A DNA stretch of 34,519 nucleotides, from positions 1 through 34,519 of the forward strand of contig JALWZT010000333.1 in assembly GCA_027002405.1 (NCBI GenBank). The letters run 5' to 3'. A model generated the notes under the pieces. The model was not told the origin of the DNA, did no database searches, and saw nothing but the letters and a program-made list of their open reading frames with translations. This document shows positions 3,510 to 34,519 of the stretch, one piece after another. Position numbers and translations under genes: made by a program. This DNA comes from Anaerolineae bacterium (lineage in GTDB: Bacteria; Chloroflexota; Anaerolineae; J102). Numbering within the stretch: position 1 is the stretch's first letter; each line of letters opens with the position of its first letter.

Positions 3510-3640
3510 GAAACGTCATTCCGAGGGAGCGAAGCGACCGAGGAATCTAGCGAAGCGCAAAAGACCACCGCATGGCGCTCGCTTCGCTCGCTAGATGCTT
3601 CGCTCCCTCCGGTCGCTCAGCATGACGTAATTCGCGTGTT
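3510..3640. repeat. Palindromic repeat with GAGCGAAGC arms, copy 1
   Basis: Two long imperfect arms face each other. The left arm starts ACGTCATTCCGAGGGAGCGA and continues to AATCTAGCGAAGCG. The right arm is the reverse complement of ACGTCATGCTGAGCGACCGG and continues to ATCTAGCGAGCGAAGCG. The outer bases CGAA and TTCG continue the pairing. Related sequence occurs at 15757-15875 and as a single arm at 31374-31405. Similar GAGCGAAGC-type repeats are, from memory, common in several bacterial phyla. No transposase is associated here. Confidence 0.8.
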
Positions 3641-9646: not shown

Positions 9647-9694
9647 ATGAACTCGTCGCAAAAAGTCATTCATCTCACGACCACTGTTCCGTAA
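9647..9694 (+). pseudogene. 15-codon gene relic cut off by a repeat
   Basis: ATG at 9647 opens a 15-codon frame (MNSSQKVIHLTTTVP) that stops at TAA 9692-9694, exactly where a TTCCGTAAATAGGAT repeat begins. The strong promoter and AAGGAGG upstream argue that a real gene once started here and lost its body when the repeat arrived. An alternative frame from ATG 9628 gives 41 codons but translates the repeat and has no ribosome site. The relic is too short to name a family. It could instead still serve as a leader peptide. Confidence 0.5.
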
Positions 9695-9747
9695 ATAGGA
9701 TCAGGATTAGGATTGAGGATTGTCAGGCCGAGGTTAGGCGCGGGCAC
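9686..9747 (+). repeat. Partial composite repeat (AGGATT block), copy 4
   Basis: TTCCGTAAATAGGATCAGGA opens a run of AGGATT-type words followed by TTGTCAGGCCGAGGTTAGGC, matching the conserved left block of the 200-bp repeat seen at 32510 and 17848. The right block is absent, and the sequence passes straight into the TNATCAG heptamers. Confidence 0.7.
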
Positions 9748-9805
9748 GAGTAATCAGTGATCAGTTATCAGTAATCAGTGTTCAGTCTTCAGTGTTCAGT
9801 GTTCA
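9748..9805. repeat. Heptamer repeat (TNATCAG / TGTTCAG words), copy 2
   Basis: Four TNATCAG words identical to 6834-6865 continue into four TGTTCAG/TCTTCAG words. The exact 7-bp period and gradual drift from one word to the next suggest slippage or copying of a 7-bp unit. Confidence 0.85.
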
Positions 9806-10029
9806 GTAGCGCCGAGGCTAGAAACAACGCCCCTGCGGGAGTAGCCGGAATTATCCGGCGCCGTTTTATAGCCCGGCGACTTCATCGCCGGGCGGGCGTG
9901 GTGGACGACACTTCGCTCGGTTAAACCACGCCAAATGTCTGAGACGCACACCGTGACCACTTGCCACGTGCCACCTGCAAACCTGCAGACTGCGTCCTAT
10001 TTTCATCGTTATGTGGTGAGCTCTCGCTC

Positions 10030-10221
10030 GTGGTGACTGTTCAAAAAAGAGGAACAATTACCCTTGACAATCTTCCCTTGCATGCAGGGGATAAGGTCGA
10101 GATCATTATTTATGAAACGGGTTCGGCCCTTGAAGTCAGATATCCGCTTCGAGGTAAACCGGTGCAATATCATGAACCCTTCAAAAGTGTCGCCGAGGAT
10201 GATTGGGAAGCTTTCCAATGA
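10030..10221 (+). CDS. Antitoxin-like protein with degenerate context
   Basis: The conserved part begins VVTVQKRGTITLDNLPLHAG and ends in YPLRGKPVQYHEPFKSVAEDDWEAFQ-type sequence. I recall this signature from small antitoxins paired with PIN toxins in Cyanobacteria and Chloroflexota. A GTG at 10030 (or 10033) gives a 63-residue protein of normal size. The ATG at 9961 would add residues translated from repeat DNA and was rejected. The stop overlaps a second start (ATGA at 10218), the classic antitoxin-toxin junction. The downstream frame runs only six codons before a MITE interrupts it, so no toxin is present. The gene lies inside the split between a histidine kinase and its regulator. Confidence 0.6.
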   Translation: MVTVQKRGTITLDNLPLHAGDKVEIIIYETGSALEVRYPLRGKPVQYHEPFKSVAEDDWEAFQ

Positions 10222-10235: not shown

Positions 10236-10435
10236 GTAACTATACAGCTCCTTCTGCAAGACGTTTCTACCACGCACGAAGGCACAAAGGCCCCCCTCCG
10301 GCTCCCCCCGCACGCAGGGGGAGAGGCAAAGACACGAAGAAAATGTTTATCTTTCCCTTTGTGCCTTGGTGTCCTTCGTGTCCTTAGTGGTTTTTGCCTT
10401 GCTATGAAAGGGTACGTGTATAGTTACAGAAAATC
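10228..10435. mobile_element. MITE copy A with 10-bp terminal inverted repeats and 8-bp target duplication
   Basis: The element proper (10236-10427, 192 bp) begins GTAACTATAC and ends GTATAGTTAC. It is flanked by a perfect direct repeat AGAAAATC (10228-10235 and 10428-10435). The interior is a hairpin of about 7-bp words: CACGAAG GCACAAA on the left, and CTTTGTGCCTTGGTGTCCTTC on the right as the reverse complement. A GC-rich palindromic insert (10289-10327) sits in the left arm. It encodes no protein. Its ends match copy B at 21566-21718. A GTAA terminus and an 8-bp duplication are, as I recall, typical of the IS66 family, so an IS66-type transposase elsewhere may move it. Confidence 0.9.
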
Positions 10436-15720: not shown

Positions 15721-15917
15721 GCGCCTAGTACAGCGTTGCATAAATCCCTTCCGGATGACGTCATGCTGAAGGAGCGAAGCGACTGAAGCATCTACCGAGC
15801 GAAGCGAGCGCACGCCCAGGCCAAGCCAAGCGCTTCGCTAGATTCCTCCGCCCCTCCGAGGCTCGGAATGACGTTCTCAATCTCGGAACGTATTTGTGCA
15901 ATCCAGTACTTAGGCGC
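15721..15917. mobile_element. Palindromic element with about 25-bp imperfect terminal inverted repeats
   Basis: The left end GCGCCTAGTACAGCGTTGCA and the reverse complement of the right end GCGCCTAAGTACTGGATTGC match with few differences. Both continue into (T/C)AAAT. Inside are the GAGCGAAGC-type arms also found at 3510-3640 (CGTCATGCTGAAGGAGCGAA on the left; AATGACG preceded by GGCTCGG on the right). It has no coding capacity and no directly abutting target duplication. It occupies most of the 328-bp gap after acnA, the rest being the terminator at 15939-15963. It is probably an old, decayed MITE. Confidence 0.75.
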
Positions 15918-17647: not shown

Positions 17648-17848
17648 AAAGCAGTCATCACGAACGGCAGTTCGCCGATACGAATGAAAACGTCTCGCGG
17701 CCAGGCTGGCGCGGGAAGCCGATTTCGTCAAGCGTCAAACGTCATGCGTCATGAGTTGACGTTTCACGTTTTACGTTTGACGTTCGTTGGTGCCTCGCTC
17801 AACGTTGTCCTGATGATCTCAATCCTAATCCTGATCCGAATCCTATTT
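17648..17848 (-). repeat. Composite repeat of about 200 bp, copy 1
   Basis: Read on the minus strand it has three parts. A left block starts AAATAGGATTCGGATCAGGA and runs to GTTGAGCGAG. A central imperfect palindrome is made of CGTCAAA/CGTGAAA words. A right block starts CGGCTTCCCGCGCCAGCCTG and runs to GATGACTGCTTT and includes the hairpin CGGCGAACTGCCG. Left and right blocks are nearly identical to those at 32510-32711, but the centre differs. It encodes nothing credible. Confidence 0.9.
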
Positions 17849-17922
17849 ACAAAGCAGGTTCTAGCCCTGCAGGGGCTTTGTACGCGTAGCCCGAGGGTTC
17901 AGCCTCGGGCACTTCTTCAACA
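17849..17922. repeat. Short hairpins after the aminotransferase gene
   Basis: AGCCCTGCAGGGGCT and GCCCGAGG-GTTCAG-CCTCGGGC lie just downstream of the aminotransferase stop. The second is a strong 8-bp stem, but no T-run follows on the minus strand. A Rho-independent terminator is therefore possible but not convincing. Confidence 0.5.
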
Positions 17923-19150: not shown

Positions 19151-19348
19151 AACGTCTTGCCACGAAGGCTCGAAGGAACGAAGACAATGCAGGTTTGCAG
19201 GTCTGCAAGTCGCAAGTGGCAAGTCCTTCTACCTTCTAGCAGCAACGCTTTTCACCTGCCACCTGCCACTTTTCCCCTTCGTGCCTTCGCCTCTCCCTCG
19301 CGTGCGGGAAAGCCGGAGGGGGCTGTCGTGGCTTTTGACCTTGCTACG
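19151..19348. repeat. Hairpin element of the CACGAAG family without intact ends (copy C)
   Basis: The interior resembles MITE copies A and B: CTTGCCACGAAGGCTCGAAG on the left, and CTTCGTGCCTTCG plus CGTGGCTTTTGACCTTGCTA on the right. Nested inside are GCAGGTTTGCAGG/CACCTGCCACC words forming an inner hairpin, and a GC-rich module (19289-19323) shared with copy A. The GTAACTATAC ends are missing. It fills the 324-bp gap between the aminotransferase and the ABC ATPase. Confidence 0.75.
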
Positions 19349-21557: not shown

Positions 21558-21726
21558 GTAGCAAGGTAACTATACAGGTATCCCACCCAACGCTTTGCCA
21601 CGAAGGCTCGAAGCTTTTCGAAGACACGAAGAGAACATTTTATTTTCTCCTTCGTGCCTTTGTGCCTTCGTGTCTTCGTGGTTTTCTCCTTGCTTTGGAA
21701 GGGTAGGCGTATAGTTACGTAGCAAG
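21558..21726. mobile_element. MITE copy B with 10-bp terminal inverted repeats and 8-bp target duplication
   Basis: The element proper (21566-21718, 153 bp) starts GTAACTATAC and ends GTATAGTTAC. It is flanked by perfect direct repeats GTAGCAAG (21558-21565 and 21719-21726). The interior is a long hairpin of CACGAAG-type words: TTTGCCACGAAGGCTCGAAG on the left and CTTCGTGTCTTCGTGGTTTT on the right. The right terminal 35 bp closely match copy A, but copy B lacks its GC-rich insert. The pre-insertion site reads GACTACGAACGTAGCAAG and resembles the end of copy C, so it may have landed in older repeat DNA. It lies in the promoter region of mreB. Confidence 0.92.
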
Positions 21727-26535: not shown

Positions 26536-26606
26536 CGTGAAACGTGAGACGTGAAACGTGAAAGGGAACTTTGCGGCGTCGCACGTTTCACGTTTTACGG
26601 TTCACG
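26536..26606. repeat. CGTGAAA-word hairpin at the atpH-atpA junction
   Basis: CGTGAAACGTGAGACGTGAA (26536-26555) and the following words pair with CACGTTTCACGTTTTACGGT (26582-26601, extending to 26606) around a 20-nt loop. Only one base separates it from the TGA of atpH. The words have an exact 7-bp period. Confidence 0.85.
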
Positions 26607-29006: not shown

Positions 29007-29045
29007 CAGGGAGTTTCTCCTTCGGGGATTTGTCAATGACGAACG

Positions 29046-29955: not shown

Positions 29956-31290
29956 CTACAAGTGGAAGAAAGAGAAAAACTGTTGAAAGCCCAAGGAAGC
30001 CATGATGGCCGCCTCGGAACTCAACGCGTCCATAATCAACCAGATCGATTGCCCCACCCAATCCCCAAAGGGGGTGTAGGCGAACAGCAAAAAGAAAAGA
30101 AAAATCCCCATTCCCCCCAGCATGTACGCGTATTGCAAAATGTGGGGAGGAAGCCAGGGTTCCAGGATACCAAAACCATCCAACCCAGGCCAGGGGATGA
30201 GATTCAGCACGAACGCGAAAATCTGGAAAAACGCCAGGAGTGCCAGCGCGGCCCAGAAAGACGCATGGGCCCGCAGGGCCATCTCATTCAGCCCCACCAC
30301 AAAAGGCAACAACAAAAGCAAACCAAAAAACAAGGTCATCAAAGGCCCGGCCGCAGAAACCGCGCTGCGCATCCAGGGTTTGCGGATCGCGCCCCGTTGA
30401 ATATACACCGCCCCCCCAGGCAATGGAATCCCTCCCAACAGCAAAAAGATGATAGGCAGAAGGATGCTCAACATGGGGTGCGTGTACTTCAGGGGATTCA
30501 ACGTGAGATACCCGTGATGCACCACACTCTCATCCCCGCCCCAGTAGGCCACCAGGGCATGCCCGAATTCATGCAACGACACCGCCAGCACCCATCCCAC
30601 CAACACAAAACCAAAGGTCAGCGCGTTGGGGTTTCCGATATTCAGGTACAACATGGCCCCCAGGCCCGCGAAGATAGCCACCAGCAACAAAAACACCGGG
30701 CTAATGGGCCATTCCCAATTTGAAGACCGGGCCGATGGTCGGGCAACAGGCCCCATCCCTCGCGTGCGTGGGACAGGCGCCCGTCGTGCGGGACGGGATG
30801 AGGCAGTTTCCGCGCGCAAGCGCCCGGCCCGAGTTCGAAACGTATCGGCATCGATCTCGAACTGCCGGAGGATCTCCCCGGCCTCGGTCTCTGGGCTCCG
30901 CAACATGCCCAAAATCAAAACCCGGGAATCGATGGCCGCGAGACCATACGCTTCCCCCTCGGCCACCGCCTCTGCCATGGCCTGGGCGCCATCCTCGGTC
31001 AGGGCAAAGCCGAAGAATTCCCCTCCGTAGGGCTCTTCCTGATTGGCCCCCAGCCGCACGTACGCCCATAGCCGGGTCTTCATCTGATCCAGCTTCAAGG
31101 GGAACTGCTCCAACACCTGCGTTCCCAAACTCCCGGGCGTTTCCAGAATCCCCAACAAAATGTGAAGGGAATTCAGCATGGTGTGGCCATGGCCCGCGGC
31201 AATGGCCCGAGCCGTGATCAACGCGTTCAAACCATCCTGAGCCAGCATCAAAGGCCGGCGTGACGTCTGGGAAGAAGAAACCTGGCTCAT
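29956..31290 (-). CDS. Clp N-terminal domain fused to an M50 (site-2-type) intramembrane protease
   Basis: The 444-residue protein begins with a Clp-N double repeat (about 13-160): NALITARAIAAGHGHTMLNS, HILLGILETPGS, then ALTEDGAQAMAEAVAEGEAY and DSRVLILGMLRSPETEAGEI. ClpA/ClpC use this domain to bind adaptors. A basic Pro/Arg/Ser linker (about 163-190) leads to a membrane zinc protease. HEFGH (240-244) lies in the second of about six helices, and the second motif NLIPWPGLDG (363-372, D371) provides the third ligand. The protein should therefore recognise something through the Clp-N domain and cut membrane proteins. No PDZ or CBS domain is present. A TATCCT hexamer lies 7 nt before the ATG and no ribosome site is seen. 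An alternative start at residue 15 cannot be excluded. Confidence 0.87.
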   Translation of the reverse strand: MSQVSSSQTSRRPLMLAQDGLNALITARAIAAGHGHTMLNSLHILLGILETPGSLGTQVLEQFPLKLDQMKTRLWAYVRLGANQEEPYGGEFFGFALTEDGAQAMAEAVAEGEAYGLAAIDSRVLILGMLRSPETEAGEILRQFEIDADTFRTRAGRLRAETASSRPARRAPVPRTRGMGPVARPSARSSNWEWPISPVFLLLVAIFAGLGAMLYLNIGNPNALTFGFVLVGWVLAVSLHEFGHALVAYWGGDESVVHHGYLTLNPLKYTHPMLSILLPIIFLLLGGIPLPGGAVYIQRGAIRKPWMRSAVSAAGPLMTLFFGLLLLLPFVVGLNEMALRAHASFWAALALLAFFQIFAFVLNLIPWPGLDGFGILEPWLPPHILQYAYMLGGMGIFLFFLLFAYTPFGDWVGQSIWLIMDALSSEAAIMASLGFQQFFSFFHL

Positions 31291-31297
31291 GCAGGCA

Positions 31298-31303
31298 AGG
31301 ATA
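31298..31303 (-). promoter_or_regulatory. Possible leaderless -10 hexamer (TATCCT) of the Clp-N/M50 gene
   Basis: TATCCT lies 7 nt upstream of the ATG at 31290 with no Shine-Dalgarno. The spacing is the same as at the kinase gene. Confidence 0.4.
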
Positions 31304-31333
31304 CCATAAACCTGCGGAAGAGGGAATTCTGCC

Positions 31334-31440
31334 GCTGTTCCGTAAAATAGGATTAGGATTAGGATTAGGATTAGGGATGCTTCGCTCCCTCCGGTCGCTC
31401 AGCATGACGAACTTCTGCGTCAATCTGCGTTGCGAAGCAT
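31334..31440. repeat. AGGATT tandem words and single-arm GAGCGAAGC repeat
   Basis: CTGTTCCGTAAAATAGGATT starts a run of five 6-bp TAGGAT words (to about 31374), the same opening as the partial repeat at 9686. It passes directly into GATGCTTCGCTCCCTCCGGT and CGCTCAGCATGACG, one arm of the palindrome at 3510-3640. Two repeat families are thus joined in the 219-bp divergent gap between the M50 fusion and the epimerase. Confidence 0.75.
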
Positions 31441-31494
31441 CTGAGGCATCAGCGTCCCCATTCTCTTTACTTGGCTTCCCCTTCATCCCTGGAT

Positions 31495-31500
31495 TACAAT
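31495..31500 (+). promoter_or_regulatory. -10 hexamer (TACAAT) of the epimerase gene
   Basis: TACAAT lies 9 nt before the ATG at 31510, with a weak TTGGCT 18 bp upstream. Transcription would start at or within a few bases of the ATG. Confidence 0.45.
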
Positions 31501-31509
31501 ACCCAGGTT

Positions 31510-32559
31510 ATGGACTACCTGCGTTTTTATCAGCAACGCCCGGTGCTCATCACCGGCGGCATGGGCTTCATCGGCTCGAACCTGGCCCATCGTCTCGTGG
31601 CATTGGGGGCCAAGGTGACCCTCATCGATAACCTCCTCCCCGACACCGGCTGGCACCCCGCCAACATCGCGGACCTGCAAGGCCGGGTGCGGCTCATCAT
31701 CGGCGATATCGGTCACCCCGAAACCGCCCGAGACGCGGTGATGGGACAAGCCGTCATCTTCAACCTGGCGGGCTCCATCAGCCACATCGACTCCATGCGT
31801 CACCCCCTCATGGACCTGGAGGCCAACGCCCGGGCCCATCTGGTCCTGCTGGAAGCCGTGCGCCAGTACAACCCGCAAGCCGTGGTCATCTATGCCGGCA
31901 CCCGACAACAGTATGGCACCCCCCAATATCTGCCCGTGGATGAAGCCCACCGCAACCTGCCCAACGACATCAATGGCATCAACAAACTCGCGGGGGAATG
32001 GTACCACCGGGTGTACCACCGGGCCTACGACATCAAAACCTGTTCCTTGCGCCTGACCAACACCTACGGCCCCCGCCAACTGATCCGCCATCCCCGCCAG
32101 GGCTTCATCGGCTGGTTTGTGCGCCAGGCCATCCTGGGCGAAACCATCACCGTGTTCGGGGATGGTCAACAACGCCGGGATCTGGTAGAAATCACCGATG
32201 TGGTGGATGCCTTCCTGCGGGCCGGGGCCAACCCCCAGGCCTGGGGCCATGTGTTCAACCTGGGCAGCGAGCCCGCCACCCTGCTGGAGATCGCGGAACT
32301 ATGCGTGGCCATCGCGGGTTGCGGCCGGGTCACCCTCGCCCCCTGGCCCGAAGAACGGGCCCGCATCGATATCGGTGACGTCTATTGCAGCTACCAACGG
32401 GCCCGGGAAACCCTGGGCTGGGAGCCCAAAACCCCCTTGCGCCCGGGCCTGCAACGCATGATCGACTTCTACCAACGCCACGCCGAGGTTTACCTGACGC
32501 CTGCTATGGAAATAGGATTCGGATCAGGATTAGGATTGAGGTCGTCAGGCCGACGTTGA
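31510..32559 (+). CDS. NAD-dependent epimerase/dehydratase (extended SDR)
   Basis: This 349-residue nucleotide-sugar enzyme has the Rossmann motif GGMGFIGS (about 16-23), a D-pair in LIDNLL and GDIGH for NAD binding, and typical strings YAGTRQQYGTPQY, LRLTNTYGPRQL, GFIGWFVRQA and FGDGQQRRDLVEITDVVDA. The usual YxxxK active site appears as NGINK in DINGINKLAGEWYHRVY: the lysine is kept but the tyrosine position is Asn. I recall the GINKLAGE variant from a whole SDR subgroup, so it is probably not a mutation. The substrate is unknown. ATG 31510 starts the conserved part. The last 14 or so residues (EIGFGSGLGLRSSGRR region) are translated from the composite repeat that begins at 32510, so the original C-terminus has been replaced. 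Confidence 0.88.
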   Translation: MDYLRFYQQRPVLITGGMGFIGSNLAHRLVALGAKVTLIDNLLPDTGWHPANIADLQGRVRLIIGDIGHPETARDAVMGQAVIFNLAGSISHIDSMRHPLMDLEANARAHLVLLEAVRQYNPQAVVIYAGTRQQYGTPQYLPVDEAHRNLPNDINGINKLAGEWYHRVYHRAYDIKTCSLRLTNTYGPRQLIRHPRQGFIGWFVRQAILGETITVFGDGQQRRDLVEITDVVDAFLRAGANPQAWGHVFNLGSEPATLLEIAELCVAIAGCGRVTLAPWPEERARIDIGDVYCSYQRARETLGWEPKTPLRPGLQRMIDFYQRHAEVYLTPAMEIGFGSGLGLRSSGRR

Positions 32560-32711
32560 GCGAGACGGCAACGGACGTGATGCGTGAAAGCGTGAAACGT
32601 GAGGTCATTACGCATCACGCATTACGCATCACGTACTCGGCTTCCCGCGCCAGCCTGGCCGCGAGGCGTTTTCATCCGTATCGGCGAACTGCCGTTCGTG
32701 ATGACTGCTTT
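32510..32711 (+). repeat. Composite repeat of about 200 bp, copy 2
   Basis: The left block starts AAATAGGATTCGGATCAGGA, followed by TTAGGATTGAGGTCGTCAGG and CCGACGTTGAGCGAG. The centre is an imperfect palindrome of GTGATGCGTGAAA / TTACGCATCACGCAT words. The right block starts CGGCTTCCCGCGCCAGCCTG and ends CGTTCGTGATGACTGCTTT. The first 50 bp overlap the end of the epimerase gene. Flanks match copy 1 at 17648-17848 almost base for base, but the centre uses different words. Confidence 0.92.
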
Positions 32712-32914
32712 GAAAATAGCATGATCGTCGGCTGCGGAAGGATCGCCAGGCCGACGTTGGGCGAGGCTGCAACGGGCGTGATGCGTGAAACGTAAAACGT
32801 GAGAGCCTTACGCATCACGCATCACGTTTCACGACCGCCAGCCTGGCCGCGAAGCGCTTTCATTCGTATCGGCGAATAGCCGTTCGTGGCGCTACATCCT
32901 CTCTTCATCCCCCC
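32712..32914 (+). repeat. Composite repeat copy 3 (tandem, diverged) and spacer before the amidohydrolase
   Basis: From about 32738 the sequence repeats the same layout: GATCGCCAGGCCGACGTTGG, a palindrome of GATGCGTGAAACGTAAAACG / TTACGCATCACGCATCACGT words, then CGCCAGCCTGGCCGCGAAGC and CGGCGAATAGCCGTTCGTGG (ending about 32889). The first AGGATT words are missing. The last 25 bp before the amidohydrolase ATG hold no clear promoter or ribosome site. Confidence 0.85.
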
Positions 32915-34519
32915 ATGCCCGACCTCATCCTCCACCACGCCCGCATCTACACCCAATGGCCCGACCAGCCCTGGGCCCAGGCCATTGCTATCCAAAAGGG
33001 CCGTATCATCGCCCTCGGTGACAACGACACCATCCTGGCCCTGGCCCGACCTCACACCCGCCGTTTCCACGGCCAGGGCCGGCTCGCGCTCCCTGCCTTC
33101 ACCGACGCCCACATCCATCTCTTCGATCTGGCCCGGCGCCGCGGGCAGGTCGCGCTCTACGACGCGACCAGCCTGGAAGACATGCTGGCCCGGGTGCGCG
33201 CTCACGCCCGTCAGCTCCCCCCCGATGCCTGGGTCCTGGGCTATGGCTGGAACGAAAGCACCTGGCCCGAGCGGCGTTTCCCCACCCGCCACGATTTGGA
33301 CGCTGTCACCGGCGGTCGGCCCGCGGTCCTCTGGCGCACCGATCTGCACGCGGCCGTGGCCAACAGCGAAGCCCTGCGCCGCGCGGGCATCCACGCCCAC
33401 ACGCCCGATCCCCCCTCCGGCGTCATCGACCGGGACGAACGCGGCCAGCCCACGGGCGTGCTGCGTGAACTCGCCATCAACCTGGTGCGCCAGGTCATCC
33501 CGCCCATGACCGAAGCCCAGGCCGCGGCCAATTTGCAAGCTGTAGCCCGGGACCTCCATGCCCTGGGCGTCGTCGCGGCCCACGACCAGCGCATGAAGGA
33601 CCATACGGAAGAAGGCCCCGAAGCCCTGCGCCTTTACCAGCGCCTGGCCGCACGAGGGGAACTGCCCCTGCGCATAAGCTGCAACCTGGAAGCCGCGCAT
33701 CTGGATGAGATCATCGAGCTGGGATTGCAGAGCGGCTTTGGGGATGCATGGGTGCGGTTCGGGCATGTGAAACTCTTCGCGGACGGCTCCCTGGGCGCAC
33801 GCACCGCCTGGATGTTGGCGCCCTATGAAAACGACCCCCACAACAGGGGCATGTTCCTCACCCCGCCCGAAGAAATGGCCGCCATCATCCAGAAAGCCCA
33901 TCGCCACGGCATCGCCATCTCCATCCACGCCATCGGCGACCGGGCCAATCGCACCGTCCTCGACATCTTCGCAGAAGCCATCGCCAGTGGCAGCGACGCG
34001 CCCCCTCTCATCCCCCATCGCATCGAACACGTCCAGACCATCCAGCCCGAAGACCAGCCCCGGCTGGCAAAGCTGAAGATCACCGCCTCGGTGCAGCCCA
34101 TCCATTGCACCGACGACATCCCCAACACCGACCGGCTGTGGGGCGCCCGCGGGCGCAACACCTATCCCTTCCGCAACCTGCTCAACGCCCGCACCTTGCT
34201 CGCCTTTGGCTCCGACGCGCCCGTAGCCAGCCCCAACCCCTGGTGGGGCATCCACGCCGCGGTCACCCGCCAGCGCCGGGACGGCACCCCTGCGGGCGGC
34301 TGGTATCCAGACCAGCGACTGACCGTACAGGAAGCTGTTTGGGCCTACACCCTGGGCCCGGCCGCGGCCATGGGCCAGGCCCACCAGCAAGGCCGCCTCG
34401 CACCCGGCTACCTGGCCGACCTCATCCTGCTGGACCGGGACATCTTCACCATCCCACCCCACGACCTCCCCCACACCCGCGTCCTCCTCACCCTCCTGGG
34501 CGGCGAGCCCGTCCATGAA
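32915..34519 (+). CDS. YtcJ-like metal-dependent amidohydrolase, 3' end outside the window
   Basis: The reading frame is open for 535 codons from ATG 32915 to the window edge. It belongs to the amidohydrolase superfamily (Amidohydro_3, YtcJ group). An N-terminal beta sandwich is followed by a TIM barrel with DAHIHL (H66, H68), HVKLFADGSLGAR (K286, possible carboxylated lysine), SIHAIGD (H338), HRIEHVQ (H368, H372) and FGSDAP (D434). These are the expected metal ligands and catalytic Asp. The C-terminal GYLADLILLDRDIF is the usual return to the sandwich domain, so only a few residues are probably missing. The family hydrolyses C-N bonds in varied substrates, and this one's substrate cannot be told. 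No Shine-Dalgarno is visible. It follows two tandem repeats. Confidence 0.92.
   Translation, partial: MPDLILHHARIYTQWPDQPWAQAIAIQKGRIIALGDNDTILALARPHTRRFHGQGRLALPAFTDAHIHLFDLARRRGQVALYDATSLEDMLARVRAHARQLPPDAWVLGYGWNESTWPERRFPTRHDLDAVTGGRPAVLWRTDLHAAVANSEALRRAGIHAHTPDPPSGVIDRDERGQPTGVLRELAINLVRQVIPPMTEAQAAANLQAVARDLHALGVVAAHDQRMKDHTEEGPEALRLYQRLAARGELPLRISCNLEAAHLDEIIELGLQSGFGDAWVRFGHVKLFADGSLGARTAWMLAPYENDPHNRGMFLTPPEEMAAIIQKAHRHGIAISIHAIGDRANRTVLDIFAEAIASGSDAPPLIPHRIEHVQTIQPEDQPRLAKLKITASVQPIHCTDDIPNTDRLWGARGRNTYPFRNLLNARTLLAFGSDAPVASPNPWWGIHAAVTRQRRDGTPAGGWYPDQRLTVQEAVWAYTLGPAAAMGQAHQQGRLAPGYLADLILLDRDIFTIPPHDLPHTRVLLTLLGGEPVHE

Follow-up and report, generated by a model that had tools for sequence, protein, structure and literature searches.

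What kind of process keeps the two ends of a repeat almost constant while its palindromic core is spelled in different words from one copy to the next? The question is posed by a composite repeat near the end of the window, the whole 34,519-nucleotide stretch of Anaerolineae DNA analysed here, taken to come from an uncultured species (it is contig 333 in a genome of 4.32 Mb and 363 contigs). The preliminary description took the pattern to suggest that some process is rewriting or expanding the core. The repeat is real, abundant and orderly, and known kinds of process mostly explain it. It probably represents a non-autonomous mosaic interspersed repeat family, the copies of which were transposed and the blocks of which were swapped between copies by recombination. 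The cores have the look of old subfamily blocks that copies have exchanged, rather than of sequence rewritten arm by arm, because copy-by-copy covariation of the arms is absent and flank alleles are shared across the core types.

The unit is ~203 bp long, is assumed from its length to be non-coding, and consists of a left end, a second block, a heptamer hairpin core, a linker, and a right block with a terminal hairpin. The window contains the following features of the family:

9692-10040, forward strand: module sharing the left block and having a related right end, in which an AGTNATC-type interior replaces the CGTGAAA core; the end is approximate.
17648-17857, reverse strand: repeat unit with a C-type core (CGTCAAA words).
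17726-17782, reverse strand: C-type core palindrome, arms 17726-17751 and 17757-17782.
26536-26606, strand not assigned: stand-alone heptamer palindrome without unit flanks.
31336-31375, forward strand: left-end fragment (CTGTTCCG TAAAATAGGATTAGGATT...).
32501-32712, forward strand: repeat unit 1, with a GGATT left end, a G-type core, CTGCTATG at the start and CTGCTTTG at the end.
32576-32602, forward strand: left arm of the unit 1 core, heptamer words CGTGATG CGTGAAA(G) CGTGAAA CGTGA.
32603-32607, forward strand: loop of the unit 1 core, GGTCA.
32608-32633, forward strand: right arm of the unit 1 core, TTACG CATCACG CATTACG CATCACG.
32682-32698, forward strand: right-end terminal hairpin, CGGCGAACTGCCGTTCG, with compensatory changes among copies in stem B.
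32705-32712, forward strand: CTGCTTTG junction common to units 1 and 2, followed by [TA]AAATAG of the next module.
32713-32889, forward strand: repeat unit 2, with a GTCGG left end and a shorter G-type core plus linker, in tandem with unit 1.

As first described, the flanks of the copies at 17648 and 32510 are nearly identical (32501-32712 against 17648-17857: left 38/40, right 74/78). The next block matches at 25/32 positions, and the core, at 45/62, differs yet is self-complementary in both copies. Folded as single-stranded DNA, the core hairpins reach -21.4 kcal/mol (z -6.4) and -17.5 (z -5.2), neither of which was equalled by any of 200 shuffles. The right block folds slightly above chance (z -2.0; 7/200 shuffles as good) and the left block does not fold beyond chance (z 0.0). 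Unit 2 had been described as a third copy with the same constant ends, but it matches 32501-32712 at only 20/40 positions of the left end and 48/78 of the right part, as against 52/62 of the core. It is most like unit 1 in the core and next block and divergent at both ends; its left-end allele is a different one (GTCGGCTGCGG), and it follows unit 1 head to tail through the common CTGCTTTG. Unit 1 has no terminal inverted repeat, its first 60 and reverse-complemented last 60 bases sharing only 5-base matches. The unit ends are direct, with CTGCTWTG on both sides.

The abundance of the repeat is far above chance. With up to 3 mismatches, the right-end pattern has 106 + 110 = 216 matches in this genome and the reversed-reading pattern 1 + 0. 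All eight other members of the genus match, with 2 to 26 matches each when 13 candidate places were scored per genome; among those listed, the G001 match is to the core alone. At 68 loci of relatives, picked by similarity to the window unit, 57 two-flank units were read in six of the eight genomes (G007 23, G005 12, G008 11, G002 9, G003 1 and G004 1), and zero in G006 and G001. Beyond the genus, the hits among the matches listed are centred on the heptamer core. In this genome, 112 units having both inner blocks were collected from 88 stretches totalling 238 kb; since these stretches were selected for similarity to the window copies, the type frequencies given below are biased. Units occur singly or head to tail, with 25 adjacent pairs. 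The tandem arrays are unidirectional, joined at CTGCTTTG followed directly by TAAATAG, and a unit block is inverted in 1 of 105 multi-block clusters. A unit is often trailed by another module, starting TAAATAGAGTAATCAGTGATCAG, after the same CTGCTTTG junction. The uniformity of the junction is partly a selection effect because the left-end pattern required a CTG-like neighbour.

The core words do differ between copies, as had been claimed, but not freely: the 112 units fall into four discrete core types, G (72 units, CGTGATG), C (23, CGTCAAA), T (15, CGTATTG/C) and S (2, AGTGTTC), the last being fused to the neighbouring module. The type of the left arm agrees with that of the right in 112/112 units, an arm being scored G when no other type fits. 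Genome-wide, with up to 3 mismatches, the C left arm has 87 matches, of which 67 are exact, and the T left arm has 249. The arms are separable, but rarely, because recombinant cores with a C left arm and a G right arm exist (at least 4 of the 87 C-like left arms, all among the inexact ones). An exact-core survey, in which 60 loci were fetched (30 of the 87 C matches and 30 of the 249 T matches), yielded 63 different places; at the 30 C places the right arm is C-type in 29 and lost in 1. The C type is also found in G003 and the T type in G002, so the core types are older than these species. Among the G005 and G008 cores (L165-L184), CGTAATT/AATCACG words stand in both arms of some copies and in the right arm only of others.

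If the core were rewritten in place, a hairpin-templated process, such as fold-back template switching or reverse-transcriptase- or telomerase-like synthesis, would write new heptamers into both arms and keep the loop and flanks. Such a process would be consistent with the common frame of about 26-5-26 bases in G, C and T cores, and with the loop alleles GCTCA and GGTCA, each of which is found in G-type as well as C-type cores even though both arms differ. Arm covariation, which the preliminary description had proposed as the test, holds between the old types: G, C and T differ jointly in both arms within the same frame, and covariation at this subfamily level is real. Copy by copy it fails. 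In a fixed-frame test that dropped length-changed cores, 108 of 169 remained, with 36 distinct cores from six genomes among them. Pairing of own arms reached 19.89 of 26 positions versus 19.57 +/- 0.20 when permuted, and 326 of 5000 permutations were as high. Within the G type, own arms score 18.62 versus 18.78 permuted in this genome (13 distinct cores), 19.57 versus 19.57 in G002 (7 distinct) and 21.57 versus 21.31 in G005 (7 distinct; 1524/5000 as high), groups small enough that weak covariation could be missed. An earlier score had given own arms an edge (13.9 versus 12.7 permuted for 88 distinct cores, 0/5000; 13.71 versus 12.97 for the G type of this genome, 0/5000). It was rejected because its split point maximised each unit's own arm match, favouring own arms, and the edge vanished in the fixed frame. 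The types are, moreover, few, nearly uniform and common to several species, which also argues against rewriting. The palindrome at 26536-26606 has an orthologous counterpart in G007 and G002 and is missing in G008 and G005, where 48 bp stand instead of 134; judged by eye, its arms look independently drifted, which counts against rewriting. Taken with the evidence from stand-alone palindromes given below, rewriting of the core in place is unlikely.

Exchange of blocks between copies accounts better for the mosaic. Left-end, right-middle and right-hairpin alleles are each seen with more than one core type, the right-hairpin alleles being common to G, C and T cores. At right-arm sites separating G from C, agreement with the left-arm type is complete (Cramer's V 1.0, e.g. 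alignment columns 140, 145 and 154), whereas the G-versus-C association is weak at right-flank sites (V 0.01-0.39) and reaches up to 0.61 in the left blocks. Of the core-changing processes proposed earlier, whole-core exchange of the gene-conversion kind fits this contrast between arm and right flank, and rewriting in place is left unsupported. Four-gamete conflicts, scored even when a combination was seen in one copy, are frequent between regions (left-right 462/520 site pairs, left-core 775/1040, core-right 582/800) and within them (right-right 152/190, left-left 132/325, core-core 131/780). Exchange between copies gives such conflicts, and recurrent mutation may contribute. Distance alone fails to order them because the figure within the right flank is high. 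Block exchange is not free: the T type is tightly linked to the block that opens the right flank, where V over all types is 0.93 at the first site and 0.68 at the second, and this linkage and the within-flank conflicts count slightly against the shuffling of blocks. One left-block allele stands with C in 14/14 copies and another with T in 9/9, and one right-block allele stands with a T core in 13/15. The interior can also be another module altogether. The stretches read contain 171 right ends, 139 of them with a recognisable left end, and 120 of these enclose a G, C or T core; a few of the left-end-to-right-end intervals span two modules. The other 19 of 139, the window module at 9692 among them, have different interiors (AGTNATC, ATCTGCG, GAGCGAAGCG) between [TA]AAATAG and the related hairpin-GACTG end.

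The terminal hairpin of the right end behaves differently from the core arms. In stem B, the pair 6-15 changes from A-T to C-G and is paired in 38 of 53 distinct ends versus 24.2 in shuffles (0/2000), and the pair 7-14 changes from A-T to G-C (46/53 versus 40.7; 4/2000), these shuffles treating copies as unrelated. Covariation of pair 6-15 is repeated in relatives (22/32 versus 13.2, 0/2000); that of pair 7-14 is not (677/2000). The remaining seven pairs of the hairpin, stem A included, show no covariation.

Transposition with exchange between copies could proceed as follows: i) the element would spread when a single-stranded hairpin form of it transposes; ii) an enzyme would recognise the common ends, [TA]AAATAG on the left and the hairpin plus GRYGACTGCTTTG on the right; iii) insertion would take place beside a sequence like the element's own end, and would therefore give head-to-tail arrays; and iv) homologous exchange between copies, by gene conversion or unequal crossing-over, would swap blocks, leaving constant ends around different cores. 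In HUH-type systems, enzymes act on single-stranded hairpins, and by analogy an enzyme of this kind would fit the one-direction arrays and the position beside a copy of the own end. The old core types may have diverged while keeping the hairpin, or may have been captured from stand-alone heptamer fold-backs. Most likely, the elements behave as parasites of the genome found at some points of rearrangement, rather than as host-function genes.

Fold-backs of paired heptamers exist independently of the unit. The pattern was found in at least 108 stretches of the species collection, 81 of which are stand-alone by eye. Among the 80 matches listed, 78 are Chloroflexota by name (some assigned from general knowledge), 1 is Nitrospirae and 1 is an uncultured bacterium. 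The locus labelled Nitrospirae, L275 (QIDP01000095.1), has two heptamer fold-backs and could be mislabelled or transferred. Viral contigs gave one heptamer fold-back (L326, an IMG/VR contig). The fold-back centres differ between loci of one genome in the 11 groups compared. This genome has four stand-alone C-type fold-backs, in which nearly identical arms (alignment score 0.85-0.96 per base) enclose unrelated loops of 16-38 bp:

L395 (L408), L402 (L407), L411 and L397: stand-alone fold-backs with nearly identical arms and unrelated loops.

At L395 and L397, the fold-back by eye apparently fills the space from a stop codon to the next start. Across the phylum, the two arms share words outside the search pattern at 19 of 62 loci versus 8.6 permuted (0/10000 as high), a test that omitted 27 of the 108 loci judged by eye to be genus-type units. 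This sharing would favour rewriting of the core in place, but when words were permuted within a genome only, the figure became 7/39 versus 4.8 (697/5000; 39 loci, 11 groups), which is not significant and counts against it. With its significance lost under the within-genome permutation, the phylum-wide sharing was dropped as evidence. A dedicated repeat-synthesising or template-switching activity might make the Chloroflexota fold-backs on site, with a shared arm vocabulary and locus-specific centres, and the ~203-bp units would then be a mobile family with an early-captured fold-back; this is rather doubtful.

A nested insertion of unrelated repeats had been named as the case that would undo the idea of a diversified core. 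The core would then be a stand-alone Chloroflexota heptamer palindrome, a different one inserted in different copies of the larger unit. Such palindromes are present in many Chloroflexota and in this genome (26536; L395, L397, L402), and unit interiors are replaceable by other modules such as the AGTNATC arrays. However, the main core types stand at the same place and in the same frame, and all 63 places of exact C or T cores have at least one unit flank (both flanks at 57, one at 6, of which 4 lie at an edge and 2 have lost the flank), leaving 0 of the 63 examined with a core free of any unit flank. The clusters also contain no core-less unit, the shortest gap from block 2 to block 3 being 57 bases. 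Repeated nesting is thus improbable as the source of the different cores; a single ancient insertion of the core is possible.

The genomic surroundings fit a mobile repeat. An epimerase-family gene (window 31471-32559) overlaps unit 1 with its 3' end, so that its C-terminus runs into the repeat, and by eye its last codons differ from the ends in G002 and G008. The gene after unit 1, taken from its start to be amidohydrolase-like, is preceded by other genes in G007 and also in G002, G008 and G006, so that gene order is broken where the repeat stands. For a full unit, the relatives yielded no clean empty site or target duplication, because the neighbours of the window units are rearranged there; the only clean absence is that of the stand-alone palindrome. 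Should the unit instead be a transcribed structured RNA or transcription-ending signal under host selection, the compensatory changes would come from RNA function; the strong core hairpins, the compensatory change in the terminal hairpin, and the intergenic position of the window units, with unit 1 reaching into a gene end, would all agree with that. No Rfam covariance model matched 31000-34000 at E values up to 1, however, and the tandem arrays, ~200 copies, unrelated interiors and gene-order breaks suit mobile repeats better, which makes a host RNA quite improbable. That the mosaic is an artefact of repeat assembly in a metagenome-assembled genome of 363 contigs, several of which end inside units, is very improbable, since core and flank lie tens of bases apart, probably within usual single reads, the separate G007 assembly has the same four-gamete conflicts (122/171, 23 units), and the core types recur in other assemblies.

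A link to a reverse transcriptase or RAYT-like gene, which the preliminary description proposed to look for, was not found. One match to PF00078 was found, a 388-aa frame which, by its motifs, we take to resemble a group II intron protein, and no tie of this reverse transcriptase to the repeat was seen. Two near-identical tandem Y1 transposase genes lie on contig 199 of this genome (G000; L120/L121). A left-block fragment, with no right block, lies ~270 bp from one of them, which is unremarkable because the repeat density is about one copy per 20 kb. Across nine genomes, Y1 gene counts have no clear relation to repeat abundance: there are 2 genes here, none in G002 (many copies, though only 72% complete) and 4 in G001 (few copies). 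A search for IS91-like Y2 genes gave no match here and was likewise silent in the control genomes. No transposase tied to the unit ends was found among the Y1, Y2 and reverse transcriptase families searched. The integron attC core site is GTTRRRY; it was not visible at the junctions, which read CTGCTTTG and then TAAATAG.

The best reading, by analogy, is that the family works like BOX, BIME or REPIN elements, a likeness in working and not a claim of membership. The phylum of the present host, Chloroflexota, also includes T. roseum, to which one of these comparisons returns. According to PMC3049150, BOX elements in Streptococcus pneumoniae and S. suis have end modules round variable interiors, clusters, nested insertions and predicted stem-loops, together with terminal inverted repeats and target duplications. 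The likeness, tested and found here, is that of a composite modular repeat whose end modules enclose exchangeable or variable inner modules. The present repeat differs in its host, which is of another phylum, in its core, a palindrome of heptamer words, and in that no terminal inverted repeat was found in unit 1, the comparison being one of layout, not sequence. REPs and BIMEs with RAYT transposases are, in PMC3116915, PMC3733652 and PMC2817692, high-copy extragenic palindromes in mosaic arrays, and to that extent the family is like them. Unlike them, its units are ~203 bp and run in one direction, alternating orientation being limited to the one inverted block in 105 clusters. GTAG-type REPs are mentioned for T. 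roseum in PMC3733652. For REPINs, PMC3116915 describes conserved ends around a middle that is less conserved but can still form a hairpin, with compensatory changes on either side. The stand-alone heptamer fold-backs resemble this arrangement, their arms being conserved and their loops unrelated. The unit is unlike a REPIN in that its ends are not inverted copies, its arms are heptamer arrays, core arms do not covary copy by copy, and no RAYT gene is tied to the heptamer arms among the Y1 genes searched. A MITE with an internal minisatellite is described for Porphyromonas gingivalis in PMC4596501. Both are small mobile-like elements with a short tandem array inside, but a terminal inverted repeat was not found here and the array is inverted on itself. 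More generally, the family has the small size and high copy number of MITEs (~203 bp, 216 right-end matches), and unit 1 lacks the terminal inverted repeats that MITEs share with an autonomous transposon. Cyanobacterial heptameric short tandem repeats consist of seven-base words in non-coding DNA and form direct arrays, not fold-backs. The present repeat is like them in word length and non-coding location and differs in forming fold-backs and in using other words.

Mosaic repeats shape bacterial intergenic DNA, and the rules by which they exchange their parts are hard to see. A large family with discrete block alleles allows transposition, recombination between copies and compensatory evolution to be separated. 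The hairpin constraint falls on the right-end terminal hairpin, which gives a testable lead to the enzyme behind mobilisation, and the work draws attention to heptamer fold-backs as a class present in many Chloroflexota. No prior description of the family or of the heptamer fold-backs was found in open-licence PubMed Central text, subscription journals being outside that scope. The window also holds other repeats. A dispersed palindromic repeat with GAGCGAAGCGACCGAGGAATCT-like words occurs in the window at 3513-3634, 15752-15858 and 31376-31415, and elsewhere inside common-end modules. Arrays of CTTCGTGCCTTCGTG-like words lie in the window at 21644-21680, 19271-19290, 10351-10370 and 29014-29033.
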